Part shown: one piece after another, positions 37,864 through 47,071 of the stretch
Layout of the letters: each line of letters starts with the position of its first letter
How positions within the stretch are numbered: the stretch's first letter is position 1
Source: Chloroflexota bacterium
GTDB lineage: Bacteria; Chloroflexota; Chloroflexia; Chloroflexales; Roseiflexaceae
Assembly (NCBI GenBank): GCA_018969485.1
Contig: JAGWYG010000015.1
Span: forward strand, 1-52,378
Direction of reading: 5' to 3'
DNA: 52,378 nucleotides
The notes under the pieces: model-generated
What the model was told of the DNA's origin: nothing
The model's database searches: none
The model's input: the letters and a program-made list of their open reading frames with translations, nothing else
Translations under genes and position numbers: made by a program

Positions 37864-38187
37864 TCATGCGTCGGGCTCGAGGTAGAACGAGAGCGGATAC
37901 CCCGCCTCGCGCGCGGCGTCGTGGGCACGATACACCCGGTCGCGCGCTTCTTCGTAGGGGTACACGGCGACCAGCGCGCGACCGCTGGTGTGTGCCGTCA
38001 GCATCACATCGACCGCACGCTCGATCGTCAGCTCGAAGATCGCGCACAGCACCAGGGTGACGAAATCCATCGGCGTGACGTCGTCATTCTCGATGATCAC
38101 CCGGTACGGCCGTGCCAGCTCGTCATCACTGGCGACCAGGTACTGTGTCGTACTGACGACCTCGGTCTCGGGCGTCGGCAGGCTCAT
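37864..38187 (-). CDS. clpS: ATP-dependent Clp protease adaptor ClpS-like
   Basis: A 107-residue ClpS-type protein, the adaptor that delivers N-degron substrates to ClpA/ClpC. The core reads YRVIIENDDVTPMDFVTLVL (about 28-47), with the Asn-Asp-Asp and M/F of the N-degron pocket, and ends GYPLSFYLEP. It is translated from an ATGA overlap with the mevalonate decarboxylase gene. No clp ATPase is in the window. Confidence 0.88.
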   Translation of the reverse strand: MSLPTPETEVVSTTQYLVASDDELARPYRVIIENDDVTPMDFVTLVLCAIFELTIERAVDVMLTAHTSGRALVAVYPYEEARDRVYRAHDAAREAGYPLSFYLEPDA

Positions 38188-39389
38188 CGCACGACTCCCG
38201 AGCCAGGTGTGCCGGGATCAATCCCCAGTTCGGCGCAGGCGAGCGCGTCGGGGACCAGTGCGGCGGGGCCGGCCGGCTGGCCGGTCACCGCCTCGAGGCC
38301 GGCGTCGAGCGCCGCGATCCGCTGTGTCAGCGCCTCGGCGCCGGCGGCGTCACACAGGAACACCGCCGTCGGCCCGGTGTCAGTCGAGCAGTACACCGCA
38401 TGGCCTTCGGCGCGGAGCTGGTTGCACAGACGGAACAGCGTGATGTTGACCGGCTCCCAGCCGAACAGCTTGTGGGCATCGCCCCCCGACATCGTGATGC
38501 CATGCAGCCGGATGCTGTCGATCTCGGCCCAGCGCCCCAGTGTCTGCCAATCGCCGGCGCGCGCCGCCGCGAGGCACGCCAGCACCTCGTCGGCACGGCT
38601 GTGCATCCAGGCGCGGAACAGGCTGCTGTGCGGCGCATCGCGATGCGCTTCCTCGGTCTGCAATGCCACCGCCGAGTCGATTGGCACCGTCACCAGGCGC
38701 AGCGCATCGAGCGCGCCGGGCGGATCCAGGCGCACGGCGAAGCTGTCCTCGTGGGCGATGCCGGGATATGACAGCCACAACGACACCCCGCCGGCGGCGC
38801 TGCGGCAGCCCGAGCCAGCCAGCAAGCGCGCGATGCTGCTGACGAAACGGGCATTGGCTGCCGCCGCCGGGCCGAACAGCGCGGCAATCGCTGCCAGCGC
38901 CAGCGCCGCCGATGCCGACGCGCTGGTGCCGAGGCCCTTGCCGACCCGGCTCGCGCGCACGACGTTATGCGACACGACATGGGCGTGCGTCGTGACGCCA
39001 GCGATGGCCCGCAGCACATCCAGGCTACGGACGACGCGGGCCAGTTCGCGGCCGGTGGCGCGCCGCCCGCCGATCACCAGCGTATCATGCGCCAGATGTG
39101 GATCAAAGGCCACCCGGGTGAGCGTCGATCCCGCATCGTTGCAGACCGAGACGCTCGGCAGAAACGCGATGCGCCAGTCCCAGTCGCTCATGCCGTGATA
39201 TTTCAGAATGCCCTGCATCGGATACGCCCGCGCTGCCGCGACGCCTGCCGGCGCGACGGACGTGAGCCGCGTCGGATATGCTGGCCAGGCGATGTCGCAC
39301 TGGTGCAATGCGGTCAGCACGCGCTGATGCTGTTCGGCCATCACTGCCGCATCGGCAGCAAACTCCGGCGGGATCGTCGTCTGCCCCAT
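38184..39389 (-). CDS. mvaD: Mevalonate 5-phosphate / diphosphomevalonate decarboxylase (GHMP family)
   Basis: A 401-residue GHMP-superfamily protein. ILKYHGMSDWDWRIAFLPSVSVCND is the N-terminal substrate region, GKGLGTSASASAALALAA the GHMP phosphate loop, and GSGCRSAAGGVSLW the Ser-Arg segment of decarboxylases. CSTDTGPTAVFLCD follows near the C-terminus. In Roseiflexus a homologue was reported to decarboxylate mevalonate 5-phosphate, so isopentenyl phosphate kinase would finish IPP synthesis; I cannot tell from sequence alone which substrate is used. ATG 39389 follows GAGG by 5-6 nt; it overlaps clpS by 4 bp. Confidence 0.82.
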   Translation of the reverse strand: MGQTTIPPEFAADAAVMAEQHQRVLTALHQCDIAWPAYPTRLTSVAPAGVAAARAYPMQGILKYHGMSDWDWRIAFLPSVSVCNDAGSTLTRVAFDPHLAHDTLVIGGRRATGRELARVVRSLDVLRAIAGVTTHAHVVSHNVVRASRVGKGLGTSASASAALALAAIAALFGPAAAANARFVSSIARLLAGSGCRSAAGGVSLWLSYPGIAHEDSFAVRLDPPGALDALRLVTVPIDSAVALQTEEAHRDAPHSSLFRAWMHSRADEVLACLAAARAGDWQTLGRWAEIDSIRLHGITMSGGDAHKLFGWEPVNITLFRLCNQLRAEGHAVYCSTDTGPTAVFLCDAAGAEALTQRIAALDAGLEAVTGQPAGPAALVPDALACAELGIDPGTPGSGVVR

Positions 39390-39500
39390 GTCATCCTCAT
39401 CCACGCGCCAGAGTGGCGCCGCCGTGGTCCGGTGTCCCGGGAACGCGACCGCCGACCGCGCCGTGCCGGCGCGTGTCGCTGCACCACGTTCCGGCTACAG

Positions 39501-39506
39501 TATAAT
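39501..39506 (+). promoter_or_regulatory. -10 element (TATAAT) of the 6-phosphogluconate dehydrogenase gene
   Basis: A perfect TATAAT 107 bp before the ATG; the -35 region is poor. It lies in the 223-bp divergent gap with mvaD. Confidence 0.45.
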
Positions 39507-39612
39507 GCCTGCGCGGGGCTGTTCCGTGCGCCATCGCCGCGCCGACGGCAGGCCGCGCCGTCCATCTTCGGCGCCACGTGCGGTGGTCGGCCGTAGTGAA
39601 GGAGACAGGTTC

Positions 39613-40515
39613 ATGGATGTCGGGATCACCGGGCTCGGCCGCATGGGCGCCAACATGGCGCGCCGCTGGCTCCGCGCCGGCTATCGTGTCGTCGTGCATA
39701 ATCGCAGCCGCGGGCCGATCGACGAACTCGCCGCCGAGGGCGCCGTCGCGACATACTCGCTCGAGGAGCTCGTCGCCGGCCTCGCTGCGCCGCGCGCGAT
39801 CTGGATCATGCTCCCCGCCGGCGACGTCACCGAGCGCGCGATCGACACGCTGATCGGCCTGCTCGAGCCGGGCGACACCATCATCGACAGCGGCAACACC
39901 AATTTCAACGATGACATTCGCCGCGCCCGCCGGCTGGCCGAGCACCAGATCCACTACATCGACCAAGGCACGTCGGGCGGCATCTGGGGCCTCGAGAATG
40001 GCTACTGCCTGATGGTCGGCGGCACCGCCGAGGCGGTCAGCCGCCTCGAGCCGGCGTTCCGCACGCTGGCGCCGGAAGATGGCTACCTGCACTGCGGCCC
40101 GGTGGGGAGCGGCCATTTCGTGAAGATGGTGCACAACGGCGTCGAGTATGGCATGATGCAGGCATATGCCGAGGGCTTCGAGATCATGCGGGCGAAGACC
40201 GACTTCAATCTCGACATGCACGCCATTGCGGCGGTGTGGAACCACGGCAGCGTCGTGCGCTCATGGCTGCTCGAGCTTGCCGAGGAGGCCTTCCGCCAGG
40301 ACCCCGACCTGGCGACGATCAAGGGGTATGTCCAGGACAGCGGCGAGGGTCGCTGGACGATCCAGACGGCGATCGAACTGGATGTGCCGGCGCCTGTGAT
40401 CACGGCATCGCTGTTCGAGCGCTTCCACTCGCGTCAGGACGAATCCTACGCCGCCAAGGTGCTCGCCGCGCTGCGCAAGGGCTTCGGCGGGCATGCGGTG
40501 AAGTCGACCGAGTGA
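39613..40515 (+). CDS. gnd: 6-phosphogluconate dehydrogenase, decarboxylating (short GntZ type)
   Basis: Oxidatively decarboxylates 6-phosphogluconate to ribulose 5-phosphate. The 300-residue length is that of the short, often NAD-dependent form (about 300) rather than the 470-residue one. GLGRMGANMARRWL (7-20), DSGNTNFNDDIRRARRL, DQGTSGGIWGLENGYCLMVGG and HCGPVGSGHFVKMVHNGVEYGMMQAY are diagnostic. GGAGA precedes the ATG. The open frame runs back upstream but that part does not match the family. It ends at a bidirectional hairpin opposite etfA. Confidence 0.93.
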   Translation: MDVGITGLGRMGANMARRWLRAGYRVVVHNRSRGPIDELAAEGAVATYSLEELVAGLAAPRAIWIMLPAGDVTERAIDTLIGLLEPGDTIIDSGNTNFNDDIRRARRLAEHQIHYIDQGTSGGIWGLENGYCLMVGGTAEAVSRLEPAFRTLAPEDGYLHCGPVGSGHFVKMVHNGVEYGMMQAYAEGFEIMRAKTDFNLDMHAIAAVWNHGSVVRSWLLELAEEAFRQDPDLATIKGYVQDSGEGRWTIQTAIELDVPAPVITASLFERFHSRQDESYAAKVLAALRKGFGGHAVKSTE

Positions 40516-40585
40516 CGCCCTGTGCCGCCACCCGCGAGCGATGGGCGCTGGCGTGCCCGGCGACCTGCCATATCGCAACGCTCCA

Positions 40586-40619
40586 CCGTGCAGCATCCGC
40601 AACGGCGGACGCTGCACGG
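40586..40619. terminator. Bidirectional hairpin between gnd and etfA
   Basis: Arms 40586-40600 and 40605-40619 form a 15-bp stem with one mismatch around loop AACG, midway between convergent stops. No T-run on either side. Confidence 0.6.
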
Positions 40620-40636
40620 CGCTGGGCGCGGCCGCC

Positions 40637-41608
40637 TCAGCGGCGCGCCTCGAGCTCGGCGACCAGCAGCGGGATGATCTCGTGCACATCGCCGACGATG
40701 CCGTAGGTTGCGACGCGGAAGATCGGCGCGGCGGCGTCCTTGTTGATCGCCACGATGACCCGCGACGAGCGCATGCCGGCGAGATGCTGGATGGCGCCGG
40801 AGATGCCGCAGGCCACGTACAGCTTCGGCGTGACCGTCTTGCCCGTCTGGCCGACCTGATGGTCGTATGGCACCCAGCCGGCGTCGACGATGGCGCGCGA
40901 GGCGCCCCACGCACCGCCGAATGCCGCCGCGAGGCGTGGGATGAGCGCGTGATACTGCTCGGGTGACCCCAGGCCACGCCCACCCGAGACGACGATCGCG
41001 GCATCGCCCAGGTTCACCGCACCAGCCCGGGGGCGACGGGCGATGACGCGCGTGCGTGAGGACGTGGGTGCATCGAGCGCCACCAGCGGGACGGGGCGTG
41101 CCGCGCCGGGGGATGCCTCGGCGAAGCTCTGCTTGCGCACGGCCACGACCGTCAGGCCGGTGCACGCGATGGTGCTGATCACATTGCCACCGTGCGATGG
41201 CCGCGTCACCGCCAGTTGATCACCATCGCGCCGGATATCGGTCGCCCCGGCGACATAGCCACACGCCAGATCGGCGGCCAGCGCCGCCGCGATGTCGCGC
41301 ATGCGGAACGAGGCGGCGCTCAGCACGAGCTGTGGCGCGCCGGCCGCCACCGCCGCCCGCAGCAGCGCCACCGCTGCGTCGGTCGTCGGCGCCGCAAGCT
41401 GCTCGTCCGCGCAGACATACCCGCGATCGGCGCCATAGGCGCCGCAGGCATGTGCCAGCTCGACGGCGCCCGGCCCCAGCGCGACCACCGACAGCGCGCC
41501 GCCGGCGGCATCGGCGAGGACGCGACCGTGCCCGAGCAACTCGCGCGTCTGGGCGTCGGGTGTGGCCGCATCGGCCGTGCGCGCCGCAATCACCATGATC
41601 TCGTTCAC
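40637..41608 (-). CDS. etfA: Electron transfer flavoprotein alpha subunit
   Basis: EtfA, 323 residues, takes electrons from acyl-CoA or other dehydrogenases and passes them on via FAD. The C-terminal FAD domain is intact: [35 protein letters not shown] and [38 protein letters not shown] 41608 is the start: GAGGAGGG lies a few bases upstream. It follows etfB by 10 bp. No dehydrogenase or ETF:quinone oxidoreductase is nearby. Confidence 0.93.
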
Positions 41609-41618
41609 GGGACCCTCC

Positions 41619-42386
41619 TCACAATACCTGTGCGTCACGCAGGCGATCCACCAGCGTGCGCACCTGTGTCGCCGCATCGCCGGCCAGCAGTTCGCTCGCC
41701 GGGCGTGCCGCCGGCGGCACGCGGCGCACGACGCGTGTAGCCGGGGTGGGCGGCGCCATCCCCAGTTCCGCCAGCGTCAGCGTCGGGATCGGTGCACGCG
41801 CCACGCGCCGGATGCGGACCAGCGAGGGATACCGCGGCTCGTTGATGCCCTTGACCACCGACAGCACCGCCGGCAGCTGTACCTCGAGCTGTTCGACTTC
41901 GTCCTCGAGATGGCGCTCGACCTGCGCCGTGGCAGCATCGAGATGCTGGATCGCGCCGACATATGTCGCCTGGGCCCATCCCAGCGCGCGCGCCAGCGCC
42001 GGCACAAACGCACCGGTCTCGTCGTCGGTCGAATTGCGACCGCAGAACACCAGACCGACATCGCCGATGCGCCGGATGGCGGCGGCGGCAACCTGTGCGG
42101 TCGCATGCGCGTCGAGCTCGGCGCATGCGGCATCATGGATCAACATCGCGTCGTTCGCGCCCATCGCCAGCGCCCGACGCATGGAGTCGCTCCAGCCGGG
42201 ATCGCCGATCGACAGTACGGTGACATTGGCGCCGAGCCGCTCACCCCAGAGCAGCGCCTCCTCAATGGCGTATTCGTCGAACAGGCTGATGATTGGCTCG
42301 ATGCCACTGGCATCGACCGCATGATCAGCGGCAATGCGCACACTATTCTGCTGTGGCACCTGCTTCAGACAGACCACAAGATTCAT
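41619..42386 (-). CDS. etfB: Electron transfer flavoprotein beta subunit
   Basis: EtfB, 255 residues, partner of EtfA. N-terminal [12 protein letters not shown], the [16 protein letters not shown] segment, [24 protein letters not shown] and the C-terminal [24 protein letters not shown] are typical. ATG 42386 has AAGGAG; the open frame runs 228 codons upstream but without support. An extended -10 (TGGTATACT, 42430-42438) lies 44 bp upstream. Confidence 0.94.
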
Positions 42387-42429
42387 CGGGGCTCCTTCCC
42401 GCCACCCACCTGCGGGGCGGCGTAGCCCC

Positions 42430-42438
42430 AGTATACCA
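42430..42438 (-). promoter_or_regulatory. Extended -10 element of the etfBA operon
   Basis: TGGTATACT on the minus strand, 44 bp before etfB. No convincing -35. Confidence 0.5.
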
Positions 42439-42501
42439 CGCGAGCCGATCGGGACACGGGCGCCGGGCTGCGCCATTGGTCCCCGCGCCGCACTGCCGCA
42501 C

Positions 42502-42530
42502 TTGACGATTTGTCGCGACCGGCGTATACT
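42502..42530 (+). promoter_or_regulatory. Promoter of the hydrolase-mgtE-GMC operon
   Basis: TTGACG (42502-42507), a 17-nt spacer and TATACT (42525-42530). It would start a transcript near 42537, about 340 nt before the first long gene, an unusually long leader. Confidence 0.65.
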
Positions 42531-42875
42531 GCCGACGTTCGGACACCTGCCCGCAGGTGCCTCCGGCGTGGCGTGCGTCGTTCGCGGCGCGAGCGCCGAC
42601 CCTGTCGGGTGCGATGGTGCAACCCCGCCAGGTGCCGGGGGAAGAGGTACGAAGGAATATGGACGCGATCCCTGGTCATTCACAGACGCGCCCTGTCGGG
42701 CCAGTGGCAGAGTGCCTGGCGTCGTCGTGCGCAGACATCGAAGCAGCGGGAGTCGCCCTGATCTGAGCGACGCCCCCGTCGCTCCTGTGCCCGCACCGAT
42801 CGCCACACGGATCGCAGATCCACCGCAGTCGCCACGACCGGCAGCGCGCACCATGCACTCAGTCGGAGAACTGGC
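42531..42875 (+). other. 345-nt leader region, possibly a structured RNA
   Basis: The transcribed leader ahead of the pseudo-hydrolase-mgtE genes. It has several short stems: CACCTG with CAGGTG around 42545-42560, GGGT with ACCC around a GATGGT loop near 42608-42625, CCCC with GGGG after it, and the sequence CCCTGTCGGG twice (42600-42609 and 42691-42700). A short ORF begins at 42659. I could not match it to the M-box, fluoride, cobalamin or SRP RNA consensus from memory. Confidence 0.35.
42659..42766 (+). CDS. Possible 35-residue small protein or leader peptide
   Basis: Starts MDAIPGHSQT, with AAGGA close upstream of the ATG, and ends in a hydrophobic AAGVALI. Two cysteines sit four residues apart plus one (AECLASSCADIEA). 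It lies in the leader of the mgtE operon behind a strong promoter. It has no recognised family; a chance frame in GC-rich DNA is quite possible. Confidence 0.25.
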   Translation: MDAIPGHSQTRPVGPVAECLASSCADIEAAGVALI

Positions 42876-43604
42876 ATGAGCGTTGTATCGTTGCGTTCGC
42901 CCGCGACCGCGCGGCGCGCCTCGGCGGTCTATTGTGCGGTCTATGGCAGTGGCGCGCCACTGGTGATGCTGCACGGCATCGGCAGCAGCGGCGTGATGTT
43001 TCAACCACTCATCGACGAATTCTGTAGCAGACACCAGATCATCGTCCCGGATCTGCGGGGCCATGGACACAGCCGGCGGCTGCCGGCCGCCGACAGCATC
43101 GAGCGGCTCGCCGATGACGTGAGCGACGTCCTCGCGTTGCTACGATGCGGCCCCTGCACGGTCATCGGCCATGCGGAAGGGGCAGCAGTCGCACTGCAAC
43201 TTGCACGGCAGCAGCCGGCGGCGGTCGATGGGCTGATCCTGCTCGAGCCGCGGCTGACGGTCGAGCGCGAGCGGGCCGGCGGCGTCAGCGGCATGCTGCG
43301 TGCGCTCGTCGGCAGCCAGGCGGTCGGTGCGCCGCTGGCAGCATCGGCGACGGCGCTGCTCGGGCGGTTTGCGTGCCGCGAGTGGATCAGCGCCATTCGC
43401 CAGCCGGTGCTGTCGGTCGCGCGCGTCGACGCCGGCACGACCGGGCGGGCGCTGATCCGTCAGTTGCGCCGTCGCGACGATCTGGTCATCGCCGCCGGCG
43501 AGGCAGTGCTGACGCCGCCGAACCGGCGGCTGGTGGCGGCGATGCGCGCCTGGCTCGGCCGGGGAGCGGCCACCGCGCCGACGGAGAACAGCGAGGCGCA
43601 GTGA
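42876..43604 (+). CDS. Alpha/beta-hydrolase-fold protein lacking the nucleophile
   Basis: A 242-residue alpha/beta hydrolase homologue. The oxyanion-side HG motif (MLHGIGSSG, 32-39) and PDLRGHGHS (58-66) are normal, but the nucleophile elbow reads VIGHAEGAAVA: the Ser of G-x-S-x-G is Ala100 (codon GCG, one base from Ser TCG). The usual Asp segment (PVLxxxGxxD) reads QPVLSVARVDAGT, and no catalytic His motif is visible at the end. It is therefore probably non-catalytic, a scaffold or ligand sensor. The ATG has GGAG 8 nt upstream; the stop overlaps mgtE (TGATG), so the two are coupled. Function unknown. Confidence 0.72.
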   Translation: MSVVSLRSPATARRASAVYCAVYGSGAPLVMLHGIGSSGVMFQPLIDEFCSRHQIIVPDLRGHGHSRRLPAADSIERLADDVSDVLALLRCGPCTVIGHAEGAAVALQLARQQPAAVDGLILLEPRLTVERERAGGVSGMLRALVGSQAVGAPLAASATALLGRFACREWISAIRQPVLSVARVDAGTTGRALIRQLRRRDDLVIAAGEAVLTPPNRRLVAAMRAWLGRGAATAPTENSEAQ

Positions 43605-44971
43605 TGACCAGCCCGACGGTCGATCTCGAGGCGCTCGAAACGCAGGTTCGCACCGCGCTCGAGCATGGTGAGCCGGCGGCGCTGAAGGTGCTGCTGCGGC
43701 AATACCACCCGGCCGACATCGCCGACGTCATCGATCGGCTCGACGACGCCGACCAACTGCGGGTCTTCCGCGCGCTCGACGTGCTGCGTGCGGCCGACGT
43801 GCTCAACGAGGCCAGCGCCGATGCGGCGCGCGAGATCATCACCAGCCTGCCGTCGGACGAAGCGGCCGGGCTGCTCGGGCAACTCTCGGCCGACGATGCG
43901 GTCGCCATCCTCACCGAGGATGTCCCGGAGCGCCGCGACGAACTGCTGGCGGCGATGCGGCCGGACGACGCTGCCGACATTCGCGAGTTGCTCAGCTATC
44001 CGCCGCAGAGCGCCGGCCGGTTGATGGTGCAGGAATACGTGCGCATCCGGCCCGACGAATCGGTCGGTCATGCACTCGATCTGGTGCGTGAGGTCGGTGC
44101 CGAACTCGGCTCGCTCAGCTATCTGTACGTCATCGACCGCAGCCAGCGGCTGGTCGGCGTCGTCTCGCTCCGCGAACTGGTGATTGCGCCATCGGCGCAG
44201 CAGATCGGCGCGATCATGCAGCCGCGCCTGATCACCGTCGGCCCCGAGACCGACCAGGAGGAGGTAGCGCAGCTGGTGGCGCGCTACGACCTCGGCGCCG
44301 TGCCGGTAGTCGACGCCGACCGGCGCATGCTGGGCATCGTCACGGTCGACGACGTGATCGACATCCTGGTCGAGGAGCACAACGAGGACACGCTGCGCTT
44401 CGCCGCCGTCGAGCAAGGCCAGGCCGACGAGAGCTACTTCACCGTCCCGATCGCCACGGTCGTCCGGCGGCGCGTGGTATGGCTGCTGCTGCTGTTCGTC
44501 GGCGGCTCGCTGACTGCGAATGTGCTCGGCCTGTTCGAACAGCAGCTACACGAAGTCGTGGCGCTGACGTTCTTCATTCCGCTGCTGATCGGCACGGGGG
44601 GCAACACCGGCGCCCAGACGGTCTCGACGCTGATCCGTGCGATGGCGATGCGTGAGGTAGGCCCACGCGACGTGTGGCGCGTCATCCGCCGTGAATGCAT
44701 CACCGGGATGGTGCTCGGGGCCGGCCTGGGCGTGGTGGCGCTCGGCCGCGTCCTGGTCAGCGGGCAGTGGTTTGACCTGGCGCTGACGGTAGCGCTGTCG
44801 GTGGTGGCGATCTGCTGCTGGGCAAATGTCATCGGCGCGCTGGTGCCGCTGGTGGCGCGCCGCCTCGGCATCGACCCGGCGCTGGTCTCGGCGCCGCTGA
44901 TCACGACGCTGGTCGATGCGACGGGCCTGGCGATCTATCTGCTGATCGCACGCATGTTGCTGGGGATCTGA
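43604..44971 (+). CDS. mgtE: Magnesium transporter MgtE
   Basis: A 455-residue Mg2+ channel. In order: the N-domain superhelix with repeated short helices (residues about 10-130), two CBS domains (about 140-255; SLRELVIAP and TVDDVIDILVEEHNEDTLR) that sense cytosolic Mg2+, a connecting helix, and five membrane helices with the pore signature GTGGNTGAQT near 345. The start overlaps the hydrolase-like gene by one base; this pairing is not standard for mgtE. A Gly/Glu-rich Shine-Dalgarno is weak (GAGG). Its stop is followed after 17 bp by the next gene. Confidence 0.95.
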   Translation: MTSPTVDLEALETQVRTALEHGEPAALKVLLRQYHPADIADVIDRLDDADQLRVFRALDVLRAADVLNEASADAAREIITSLPSDEAAGLLGQLSADDAVAILTEDVPERRDELLAAMRPDDAADIRELLSYPPQSAGRLMVQEYVRIRPDESVGHALDLVREVGAELGSLSYLYVIDRSQRLVGVVSLRELVIAPSAQQIGAIMQPRLITVGPETDQEEVAQLVARYDLGAVPVVDADRRMLGIVTVDDVIDILVEEHNEDTLRFAAVEQGQADESYFTVPIATVVRRRVVWLLLLFVGGSLTANVLGLFEQQLHEVVALTFFIPLLIGTGGNTGAQTVSTLIRAMAMREVGPRDVWRVIRRECITGMVLGAGLGVVALGRVLVSGQWFDLALTVALSVVAICCWANVIGALVPLVARRLGIDPALVSAPLITTLVDATGLAIYLLIARMLLGI

Positions 44972-44988: not shown

Positions 44989-45438
44989 ATGGCGGCACAC
45001 GACGAGGTGACGACGCGCCTGGCGCTGGTGCTGGGCGATGCGGCGGTGGTGACGCTGCGCAGCGTGCTGGAGCGACTCATTCCCGACGATGACTGGCCGG
45101 GCGGCTGGCGGGCGGGGTGTGGTGCCTATCTGGCGCGGCAGTTCGCTGGCGATCTGGCCGACTGGGTGCCACGCTATCGGGCCGGGCTGGCCGCGCTCGA
45201 CGCCGAGGCGCGGCTGCGCCATGCGTGTGCGTTCGCCGACCTCGCGGCCGATGCGGCCGATGCGCTGCTGCGCGACATCGAGCGTGGCGTCACCCGGGCC
45301 GACTGGCCGATCGACGCCGCCGCCTTCTTCGCCGGTGCCGTCGATCATGCCGCCGAAGGATTCTACAGTGATCCGGCGAATGGCGGCAATCATGCCGGCA
45401 TCGCGTGGCAGATGGTCGGATTTGTGGTGACGGGGTGA
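44989..45438 (+). CDS. Gluconate 2-dehydrogenase subunit 3 family protein
   Basis: A 149-residue small subunit. FFAGAVDHAAEGFYSDPANGGNHAGIAWQMVGF (about 111-143) is the family signature that ends most such subunits. Members accompany GMC-type dehydrogenases and usually carry a Tat signal; none is present here. A strong GGGGGGAG precedes the ATG. The following GMC gene starts four bases after its stop, so the two probably form a heterodimer. Confidence 0.8.
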   Translation: MAAHDEVTTRLALVLGDAAVVTLRSVLERLIPDDDWPGGWRAGCGAYLARQFAGDLADWVPRYRAGLAALDAEARLRHACAFADLAADAADALLRDIERGVTRADWPIDAAAFFAGAVDHAAEGFYSDPANGGNHAGIAWQMVGFVVTG

Positions 45439-45442
45439 ACCG

Positions 45443-47071
45443 ATGAGCCATTATGATGTCATCGTCGTCGGCGCCGGCGCCGGCGGCGGCGTCGCGGCTG
45501 GCGTCCTGGCCGAGGCCGGCCGCTCGGTGCTGCTGCTCGAGCGCGGCGCGGCGCAGGGATATGCCGACGAGCGCCGCGATCACCTGCGCAATCACCGGCT
45601 GGCGCGCTATGGGCACTCCACTGGCCCGGCGCTCAGCGGCCACCCGCGCGTGTTCGTCGACCCGGCCGGCACCGCGCACCCCGTGCGGCCATTCGATCCG
45701 GAGTATCACAACAACGCCATGGCCGTCGGCGGCGGCACGCTGGTCTACGGCGCGCAGGCATGGCGCTTCCTGCCGCAGGATTTCCGCATGGCGCAGGAGT
45801 ACGGCGTTCCCGCGGGGAGCTCGCTGGCCGACTGGCCGCTGACCTACGAGGATCTGGCGCCCGACTACGAGCGCGCCGAGTGGGAAGTGGGCGTAGCCGG
45901 CGACAGCAGCGGTGCACGCCAGATCTGGCCACGTGCGCGCGACTACCCGCTGCCGCCGGTGCCGCGCTGTGGTGCTGCGCCAGCGTTGGCGCGGGCCGCC
46001 GACGCGCTCGGCTGGCCGCACCTGGCACCACCGCTGCTGATCAACACCGCGCCGCGCCATGGCCGCGCCGCCTGCACCGGCTGCCAGCACTGCGTCGGCT
46101 TCGCCTGCCCGGTCGATGCCAAGAATGGCACCCAGAACACGCTGATTCCACGCGGCCTGGCGACCGGCCGGCTCACGCTGCAACCCGGCGTCTTCGTCGA
46201 CCAGATCGAGGTCACGCCGGCGGGGCGGGTGCGCGGCGTGCGCTTCATCGACGCCGCCGGCCAGCCGCGGCATGTCACTGCCGACGTCGTCGTGATCTCG
46301 GCCGGTGCCATCGAGACTGCGCGCCTGCTGCTGCATTCGCGTTCGGCAGCGCACCCCACCGGGCTGGGCAATCGGTACGACCAGGTCGGGCGTCATCTGC
46401 AAGGGCACTACTACCCGCGCGCCATCGCCCTGATGCCCGAACCGATCTACGATGGCGTCGGCCCGGGCGTCTCGATCGCGACCACGCGGTTCAATCACGG
46501 CAACGACGGCATCATCGGCGGCGGCATGCTGGCCAACGACTTCATCGTGCTGCCGGTCATCTTCTGGCGTGGCCTGGTGCCGCCCGAGGTGCCGCGGTGG
46601 GGGCTGGCCAACAAGGCGTTCATGCGCCAGCAGTATCGTCACGTCGCGCAGGTGATGGGGCCAGTCCAGGACATCCCCAACCCCGAGGCGCGCGTCACGC
46701 TCGACCCGGCGGTGCGTGATCGCCATGGCGTGCCGGTGGCGCGCCTCAGCGGCACGACGCATCCCGAGACGGTGCGCACCGCCGAGTTCATGTGGCGCCG
46801 CGCCCACGAGTGGCTGCAGGCTGCCGGCGCAGTGCGCACCTGGGGGCCGCCGCCCGGCCTGATGCTGAGCGCAGGCCAGCACCAGGCCGGCACCTGCCGC
46901 ATGGGCCACGATCCGCACAGCTCGGTCACCGATGCCAGCGGGCGGGTCCACGGCCACGACAACCTGTACATCGCCGATGCGTCGCTGCACGTCACCAATG
47001 GCGGCTTCAATCCGGTACTCACCGTGATGGCGCTGGCGTTTCGCGTCGCCCGCGCGATCGCCGGCCGCTGA
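45443..47071 (+). CDS. GMC-family FAD-dependent dehydrogenase with a Cys-rich cluster
   Basis: A 542-residue catalytic partner of the preceding subunit. N-terminal FAD motif GAGAGGG (10-16), the GGGTLVYG (97-104) FAD region, and the C-terminal HQAGTCRMG with NLYIADASLHVTNGGFNPVLTVMAL. Cys at 211, 214, 217 and 222 (C-x2-C-x2-C-x4-C) could hold a 3Fe-4S-type cluster, as in the FAD-glucose dehydrogenase complexes. It has no signal peptide and no cytochrome subunit is adjacent. The substrate is probably a sugar, alcohol or polyol. A stem GCCGGC/GCCGGC (47060-47077) straddles the stop. Confidence 0.85.
   Translation: MSHYDVIVVGAGAGGGVAAGVLAEAGRSVLLLERGAAQGYADERRDHLRNHRLARYGHSTGPALSGHPRVFVDPAGTAHPVRPFDPEYHNNAMAVGGGTLVYGAQAWRFLPQDFRMAQEYGVPAGSSLADWPLTYEDLAPDYERAEWEVGVAGDSSGARQIWPRARDYPLPPVPRCGAAPALARAADALGWPHLAPPLLINTAPRHGRAACTGCQHCVGFACPVDAKNGTQNTLIPRGLATGRLTLQPGVFVDQIEVTPAGRVRGVRFIDAAGQPRHVTADVVVISAGAIETARLLLHSRSAAHPTGLGNRYDQVGRHLQGHYYPRAIALMPEPIYDGVGPGVSIATTRFNHGNDGIIGGGMLANDFIVLPVIFWRGLVPPEVPRWGLANKAFMRQQYRHVAQVMGPVQDIPNPEARVTLDPAVRDRHGVPVARLSGTTHPETVRTAEFMWRRAHEWLQAAGAVRTWGPPPGLMLSAGQHQAGTCRMGHDPHSSVTDASGRVHGHDNLYIADASLHVTNGGFNPVLTVMALAFRVARAIAGR

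Follow-up and report, generated by a model that had tools for sequence, protein, structure and literature searches.

The gene directly upstream of the Mg2+ channel gene mgtE in a Roseiflexaceae genome (Chloroflexota) encodes a protein of the alpha/beta-hydrolase family that has lost its catalytic residues, and both the loss of the nucleophile and the pairing with mgtE are conserved in its relatives. The stretch of DNA analysed, 52,378 nucleotides in length, is called the window here. The pseudo-hydrolase is a candidate helper or regulator of MgtE. The reading we prefer, with a probability of about 0.45, is that it is a non-catalytic, dedicated partner of MgtE, made together with it under control of the Mg2+ type. 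This reading is based on computed observations: the clade-wide loss of Ser, the retained residues and predicted fold, purifying selection, the pairing and overlap of the genes, and the anatomy of their leader.

The window protein contains the motif GHAEG at residues 98-102, with Ala100 at the nucleophile elbow. An earlier note, made from the sequence alone, had described this replacement of the nucleophile Ser and an altered Asp region, and had proposed conservation of Ala100 in relatives as a check. The alignment agrees on all three counts: the 12 orthologues have Ala (11) or Gly (1) and never Ser, and the window protein has a gap where the catalytic Asp would align. The catalytic His, absent from the earlier note, is lost as well, with Glu at its column. 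All three attributes of an active serine hydrolase, the nucleophile Ser, the catalytic His and the catalytic acid, are missing from the window protein. Among 93 other homologues the nucleophile column contains 90 Ser, 2 Gly and 1 Ala. At the His column, His stands in 1 of 11 orthologues and in 90 of the 93 others; the corresponding counts for Asp are 8 of 11 and 77 of 93. The protein of G010 ends at a contig edge and was counted at the nucleophile column only. The 93 rows (91 distinct) remain from 107 other rows after removal of 9 second orthologue copies and 5 matches below 75 bits.

A search of 40 related genomes yielded 12 matches with E<=1e-32, all from the same family, Roseiflexaceae; the next best value was 1e-19. 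The 12 orthologues form one clade (branch support 100/98) in a tree of 57 rows, comprising these orthologues and 45 of the 93 other homologues, and adjoin GYSQGG-type Ser hydrolases of several phyla. The early-branching protein of G007 has kept Asp and His and has Gly at the nucleophile place. His is lost in most other members of the clade, and in the genus of the window Asp is lost too. The order of loss across living genera may be read on the tree as Ser, then His, then Asp. The branch leading to the window lineage is long. A class-wide search of 158 genomes, in which up to 17 best candidates per genome were scored, found 14 genomes with a match at E<=1e-30. Twelve of these represent the same clade, and the matches in the other two, G067 and G126, carry Ser in the printed sequences. 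In a phylum-wide search of 301 genomes (up to 9 best candidates per genome), two genomes reached E<=1e-40, and both belong to the family of the clade.

A wider origin of the clade was rejected on the basis of these best-candidate searches of 158 class and 301 phylum genomes. Drift in a single genome was rejected as the cause of the Ser loss, since the loss is clade-wide, and so was an assembly error, given the clade-wide loss and the identical state of another genome of the same genus. Three other alpha/beta-hydrolases (L126, L118, L124) retain His, with the nucleophile replaced by Ala (GYATGA) or Gly (GYGEGA); L126 and L118 are placed outside the pseudo-hydrolase clade in the tree.

In all 11 testable genomes mgtE is the next gene downstream of the pseudo-hydrolase gene and has the same orientation; this count leaves out G010, where the contig ends, and includes G001, whose contig holds just the first 43 mgtE codons. 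The earlier note had named relatives with Ser and without linkage to mgtE as the observation that would speak against it; instead, the loss of Ser and the pairing are both conserved. The absence of Ser in 12 of 12 proteins together with the adjacency in 11 of 11 genomes exceeds chance. The one-base overlap that the note had seen is also real, as the TGA codon of the pseudo-hydrolase gene (43602-43604) and the ATG codon of mgtE (43604) have one base in common. The coding regions overlap in 9 of the 11 genomes, by one base in G000 (the window genome) and G001, by four bases in G003, G005, G009, G012, G017 and G019, and by seven bases in G007. The genes are separated by about 150 bp in G006 and by 69 bp in G015. 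The 69-bp gap is apparently due to partial duplication of the junction (L033, 1699-1772). In G003 (L038) mgtE contains a single internal TAA at codon 202, and the pseudo-hydrolase gene is intact.

Eleven of 24 genomes of the family have mgtE at E<=1e-30, and each of these also encodes the pseudo-hydrolase. Among the 13 genomes with no mgtE match, 12 also have no pseudo-hydrolase, and the remaining one, G010, has the gene at a contig end. The neighbourhoods were compared over 5-17 kb, taking every ORF of at least 100 residues and a threshold of E<=1e-10. In most pairs of genera, only the hydrolase gene, mgtE and the frames overlapping them are common to the compared stretches. The exceptions are as follows. 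The window and G006 also have two downstream genes in common; several neighbours are common to the Roseiflexus-type genomes (G003, G009, G012, G015, G017, G019), and between these and G005; G006 and G007 have one additional match (34%); G005 and G010 have three short ones. Since neighbours are common within the Roseiflexus-type genus and between this genus and G005, these comparisons add little. Across most genera, where other neighbours are not in common, neighbourhood inertia was rejected as the cause of the linkage. Within the window, the interval 37867-43070 contains genes for ClpS, a diphosphomevalonate decarboxylase-like protein and 6-phosphogluconate dehydrogenase, and two genes with ETF domains (EtfA/EtfB-like) on the opposite strand.

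The pairing is known from one family only. The MgtE of G024, a genome from another family, groups with that of G007 as its sister (96/89) among the linked MgtE proteins, and the 1.5-kb flanks of its gene contain no relative of the pseudo-hydrolase. As this MgtE is nested among the linked ones and has no such partner beside it, MgtE of this type can exist without the protein, which argues against an obligate role of the pseudo-hydrolase. Moreover, MgtE is not the sole route for Mg2+, as CorA is present in 33 of 40 related genomes, including that of the window.

The MgtE protein of the window is a full MgtE, scoring 395 bits with TIGR00400 (cut-off 232.75) and matching the Pfam domains MgtE_N, CBS and MgtE. 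It aligns with the MgtE structure 2yvx across residues 9-453. The acidic residues of the Mg2+-sensing interface of 2yvx and its pore Asp look conserved by eye. The features of the locus are listed in the table.

Table. Features of the pseudo-hydrolase-mgtE locus and its leader in the window
Feature	Coordinates	Strand	Remarks
Sigma-70-like promoter, TTGACG - 17 nt - TATACT	42502..42530	+	consensus by eye; same arrangement in G001
Conserved uORF, MDAIPGHSQTRP...	42659..42766	+	35 codons; GAAGGA Shine-Dalgarno-like stretch before; type at 12/12 loci
Hairpin at uORF stop	42765..42784	+	8-bp stem, no T-tract; score reached by 2/40 shuffles, weak alone
Shine-Dalgarno-like CGGAGA of the pseudo-hydrolase gene	42864..42869	+	CGGAGGA in 5/6 relatives printed
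Pseudo-alpha/beta-hydrolase	42876..43604	+	242 aa, ATG start; Ala100 replaces nucleophile Ser; His, Asp lost
Codon 100 (GCG, Ala)	43173..43175	+	nucleophile position within GHAEG; place counted from the 42876 start
mgtE, Mg2+ channel/transporter	43604..44971	+	455 aa; MgtE_N, CBS pair, MgtE membrane domain
Gluconate_2-dh3 family subunit	44989..45438	+	downstream neighbour, common with G006 among genomes compared
GMC oxidoreductase	45443..47071	+	downstream neighbour, common with G006 among genomes compared

The leader of the pair contains three elements, all new relative to the earlier note: a uORF, a hairpin with a T-rich tail and, in relatives, an M-box. BLAST of the upstream regions revealed a block common to 11 of the 12 loci (not G007), with an ATGGACG core in all 12. 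The uORF has 34-40 codons and starts with MD at every locus; at 10 of the 12 the start reads MDA-x-x-GHS. Among the six Roseiflexus-type genomes, the numbers of variable columns at codon positions 1, 2 and 3 are 8, 5 and 14 of 34, a pattern that is suggestive only as a sign of translation. The comparison of G000 with G001 (4, 6 and 4 variable columns) gives no support for translation. The arguments for a translated peptide are the first codons, a switch of Ser codons between TCN and AGT, and the in-frame shortening by two codons in G007 and G010.

At 10 of 12 loci the region between the uORF start and the pseudo-hydrolase gene contains a hairpin and, after it, a T-rich tail; the tails are weak in, for example, G005, G007 and G010. 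In the window and in G001 the hairpin is kept and the T-tract is absent. The hairpin score was reached by none of 40 shuffles at nine loci, all of them among the ten with a T-rich tail; it was reached by one shuffle in G006, two in the window and three in G001. M-boxes (RF00380) above the gathering score were found upstream of the pseudo-hydrolase gene at 3 of 12 loci (G005, G006, G010). No M-box was found at gathering score in the window or elsewhere in its genome, none up to E=10 in the interval 42380-42900, and none at the Roseiflexus-type loci. The Roseiflexus-type leaders (L033-L036, L038, L039) contain, about 180 nt before the uORF, a GTGCTCTCTCG-like start and later a CGAGAGAG-like strand. 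By eye these two strands resemble the outer helix of the M-box; the core differs, and Rfam gives no hit there at E values up to 10. The Roseiflexus-type leader is possibly a diverged or replaced sensor RNA. A SAM riboswitch was observed near the pair in G001 (L031:3973-4106, minus strand).

With the uORF at 12 of 12 loci, the hairpin and T-rich tail at 10 and the M-box at three, the pair looks like a Mg2+-responsive operon, and apparently it is under Mg2+-responsive control. We infer that the leader likely acts by Mg2+-dependent attenuation, the riboswitch having been lost or replaced in some genera. The earlier note could not take into account the Mg2+-type leader control of relatives, which raises the likelihood of a role in Mg2+ supply.

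Similar uORFs were observed downstream of other M-boxes. A short ORF starting with MD lies within 330 nt after the aptamer at 31 of 40 Chloroflexota M-box loci. Dinucleotide shuffling of the same stretches, repeated 200 times, gave 3.8 on average and 8 at most; control stretches contain four such ORFs in 80. Some of the loci come from close relatives, and therefore the 31 cases are not independent events. The 40 loci (11 and 29) come from two scans, with one additional match that has no locus, and the M-box list of the 29-locus scan was obtained with stricter filters and is thus a lower bound. The peptides are of the types MDAxxGHS, MDEGGHR, MDVSSHSRRR and MDAGPSSS (window 42659-42766; L173-L183 and L190-L216 after M-boxes). 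The MD-type uORF is a candidate widespread Mg2+ leader peptide. In the open literature, a search for such uORFs listed a single paper, from 2026 (PMC12810186), and the word Chloroflexi does not occur in it. One M-box, in G002, precedes a gene with MgtE_N, CBS and PRC-barrel domains and no match to the MgtE membrane domain (L184:1014-2246).

The pseudo-hydrolase gene is under purifying selection. Its dN/dS ratio, estimated by counting, is 0.09-0.24 within genera (0.22 for G000-G001); between genera it is 0.22 for G005-G009 and 0.46 for G000-G006. In the same within-genus pairs the ratio for mgtE is 0.03-0.13, calculated from 43 codons only for G000-G001 and from 201 where G003 is one of the two genomes. 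In each of the 11 pairs pN is lower for the N-terminal half, and the C-terminal half is fast-evolving (pN 0.18 vs pS 0.35, G000 vs G001). The residues that 90% or more of the clade have in common and that are rare in 11 sister rows include R7, R13, R14, A17, C20, G36, Q43, Q54, D73, S74, I75, R77, L88, A100 and W226. Eight of these columns were checked, and a letter is present in 10 or 11 of the 11 sister rows.

The Abhydrolase_1 profile matches the window protein with 66.6 bits (cut-off 25.8). An AlphaFold2 model from a 40-row alignment has a mean pLDDT of 80.7 and pTM of 0.82, with a weak N-terminus and a weak cap (near 50); it supersedes an earlier model with pLDDT 68.4. The predicted fold superimposes on 3kxp with Z 24.7 and rmsd 2.8 over 220 residues; matches to esterases have Z of about 24. 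The alpha/beta-hydrolase fold is thus predicted to be intact, although likeness of fold is no proof of function. The pI is 10.1 for the window protein and 7.8-10.4 in the clade; that of the MgtE cytosolic part is 4.3, with a charge of about -28. Three of the eight sister proteins printed are basic as well (pI 8.9-9.6), and the opposite charge is weak evidence for binding.

These data bear on several other explanations. The degenerate hydrolase frame might be kept because its translation brings ribosomes to mgtE, with little importance of the protein product. Indeed, the coding regions overlap in most genomes, the mgtE ribosome-binding site then falls within the 3' portion of the hydrolase gene (it looks weak in the window, by eye), and the C-terminal half of the protein is poorly conserved. 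However, selection acts at the amino acid level and is stronger on the N-terminal half, clade-specific residues are fixed in an intact predicted fold, and the protein is kept in G006 and G015, where the genes are separated. We consider this explanation unlikely. Less likely still is a small-molecule receptor resembling GID1, in which catalysis is lost and the pocket still binds a ligand, signalling to MgtE or elsewhere. H33, DLRGHG at 59-64 and S66, around the former pocket, are invariant in the clade, and RsbQ and D14 (Z about 23) are among the structural matches to the model. On the other hand, the cap region is poorly modelled, Ser is gone and His is mostly gone.

The protein might also be produced in response to Mg2+ stress and act elsewhere in the cell, having only the operon in common with MgtE. 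The leader alone would account for the linkage, and G000 and G006 have more genes in common after mgtE. However, the adjacency has outlived other neighbours across most genera, and 12 of the 13 family genomes with no mgtE match have no pseudo-hydrolase either, the copy in G010 being at a contig end. Such a protein is, in our opinion, slightly less probable than the receptor. Finally, the retention of Asp in 8 of 11 proteins, and of both Asp and His in G007 next to a Gly at the nucleophile, could be compatible with an enzyme using non-canonical chemistry. Given that His is absent from 10 of 11 proteins and Ser from all 12, and that the clade-fixed residues form no obvious catalytic set by eye, we regard a remaining enzyme as very improbable.

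For the dedicated partner of MgtE, the reading we prefer, we infer a Mg2+ response of the leader, binding to MgtE, a site on MgtE and an effect there. Low Mg2+ would switch on the hydrolase-mgtE operon, and the pseudo-hydrolase, made in step with MgtE, would then bind it, perhaps at its acidic cytosolic N/CBS domain. Once bound, it may tune the gating, assembly or stability of MgtE, and this effect may in turn be modulated by a ligand in the former substrate pocket. A more detailed version is possible rather than probable: the pseudo-hydrolase would be the first dedicated soluble accessory subunit of MgtE, encoded on one Mg2+-responsive message, placing an Arg-rich N-terminal face on the acidic sensing domain and linking a pocket metabolite to Mg2+ uptake.

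MgtE channels for Mg2+ are widespread in bacteria and have relatives in humans (SLC41); they are known to be controlled by a riboswitch, through the action of Mg2+ and ATP on a domain of the channel itself and, in Bacillus, by YqgP/FtsH (PMC7231995). A co-encoded soluble partner, if true, would be a new layer of MgtE control, and the pseudo-hydrolase a testable case of an enzyme turning into a regulator. YqgP is a kind of protein unrelated to the pseudo-hydrolase. No hydrolase-fold partner of MgtE was found in the open literature, as covered by titles and the beginnings of abstracts, subscription journals lying mostly outside. The YqgP-MgtE-FtsH system of Bacillus subtilis is similar in that a partner controls MgtE and its adaptor function is independent of catalysis; it differs in that YqgP is a rhomboid membrane protease of unrelated fold acting on MgtE degradation (PMC7231995).

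The analogy with plant hormone receptors drawn in the earlier note is loose. GID1, which takes part in signalling and is believed to have evolved from a hydrolase through loss of a catalytic residue, has indeed lost His, yet it still uses Ser and Asp to bind gibberellin, and DAD2/D14 requires the triad, whereas the pseudo-hydrolase clade has lost Ser throughout and His in nearly all members (PMC3531792). The pocket Ser and Asp retained by receptors of the GID1/D14 type are both absent from the window protein by residue alignment (PMC3531792). RsbQ-RsbP of B. subtilis is similar in that an alpha/beta-hydrolase is encoded in a two-gene operon with its signalling partner; however, RsbQ needs the intact triad, which the window protein lacks, and RsbP is a PAS-domain phosphatase (PMC3183031). 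As a nucleophile-less hydrolase fold, ABHD5 is closer than GID1, the replaced nucleophile in the alignment and the predicted fold being the sole common features tested. ABHD5 is a lipase co-activator. ABHD5/CGI-58, titled a regulator of lipid metabolism, has the alpha/beta-hydrolase fold with Asn153 in place of the nucleophile; it is a eukaryotic lipid-droplet protein, whereas the proteins considered here are bacterial, have Ala or Gly and are operon-linked to a Mg2+ channel (PMC9694394).

The leader also has counterparts. In mycobacteria, an M-box is followed by a conserved small ORF, rv1805A, and then by a Mg2+-supply operon (PMC12810186). The likeness is one of arrangement; the rv1805A peptide is reported as mycobacteria-specific, with Rho-dependent termination, whereas the loci considered here are from Chloroflexota and have terminator-like hairpins (PMC12810186). 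The short leader ORF mgtL, with an early acidic residue, likewise precedes a Mg2+ transporter gene, mgtA; MgtL has an EPDP motif and Rho-dependent termination, whereas the putative leader peptides described here are of the MDAxxGHS type and are associated with terminator-like hairpins (PMC11282234).
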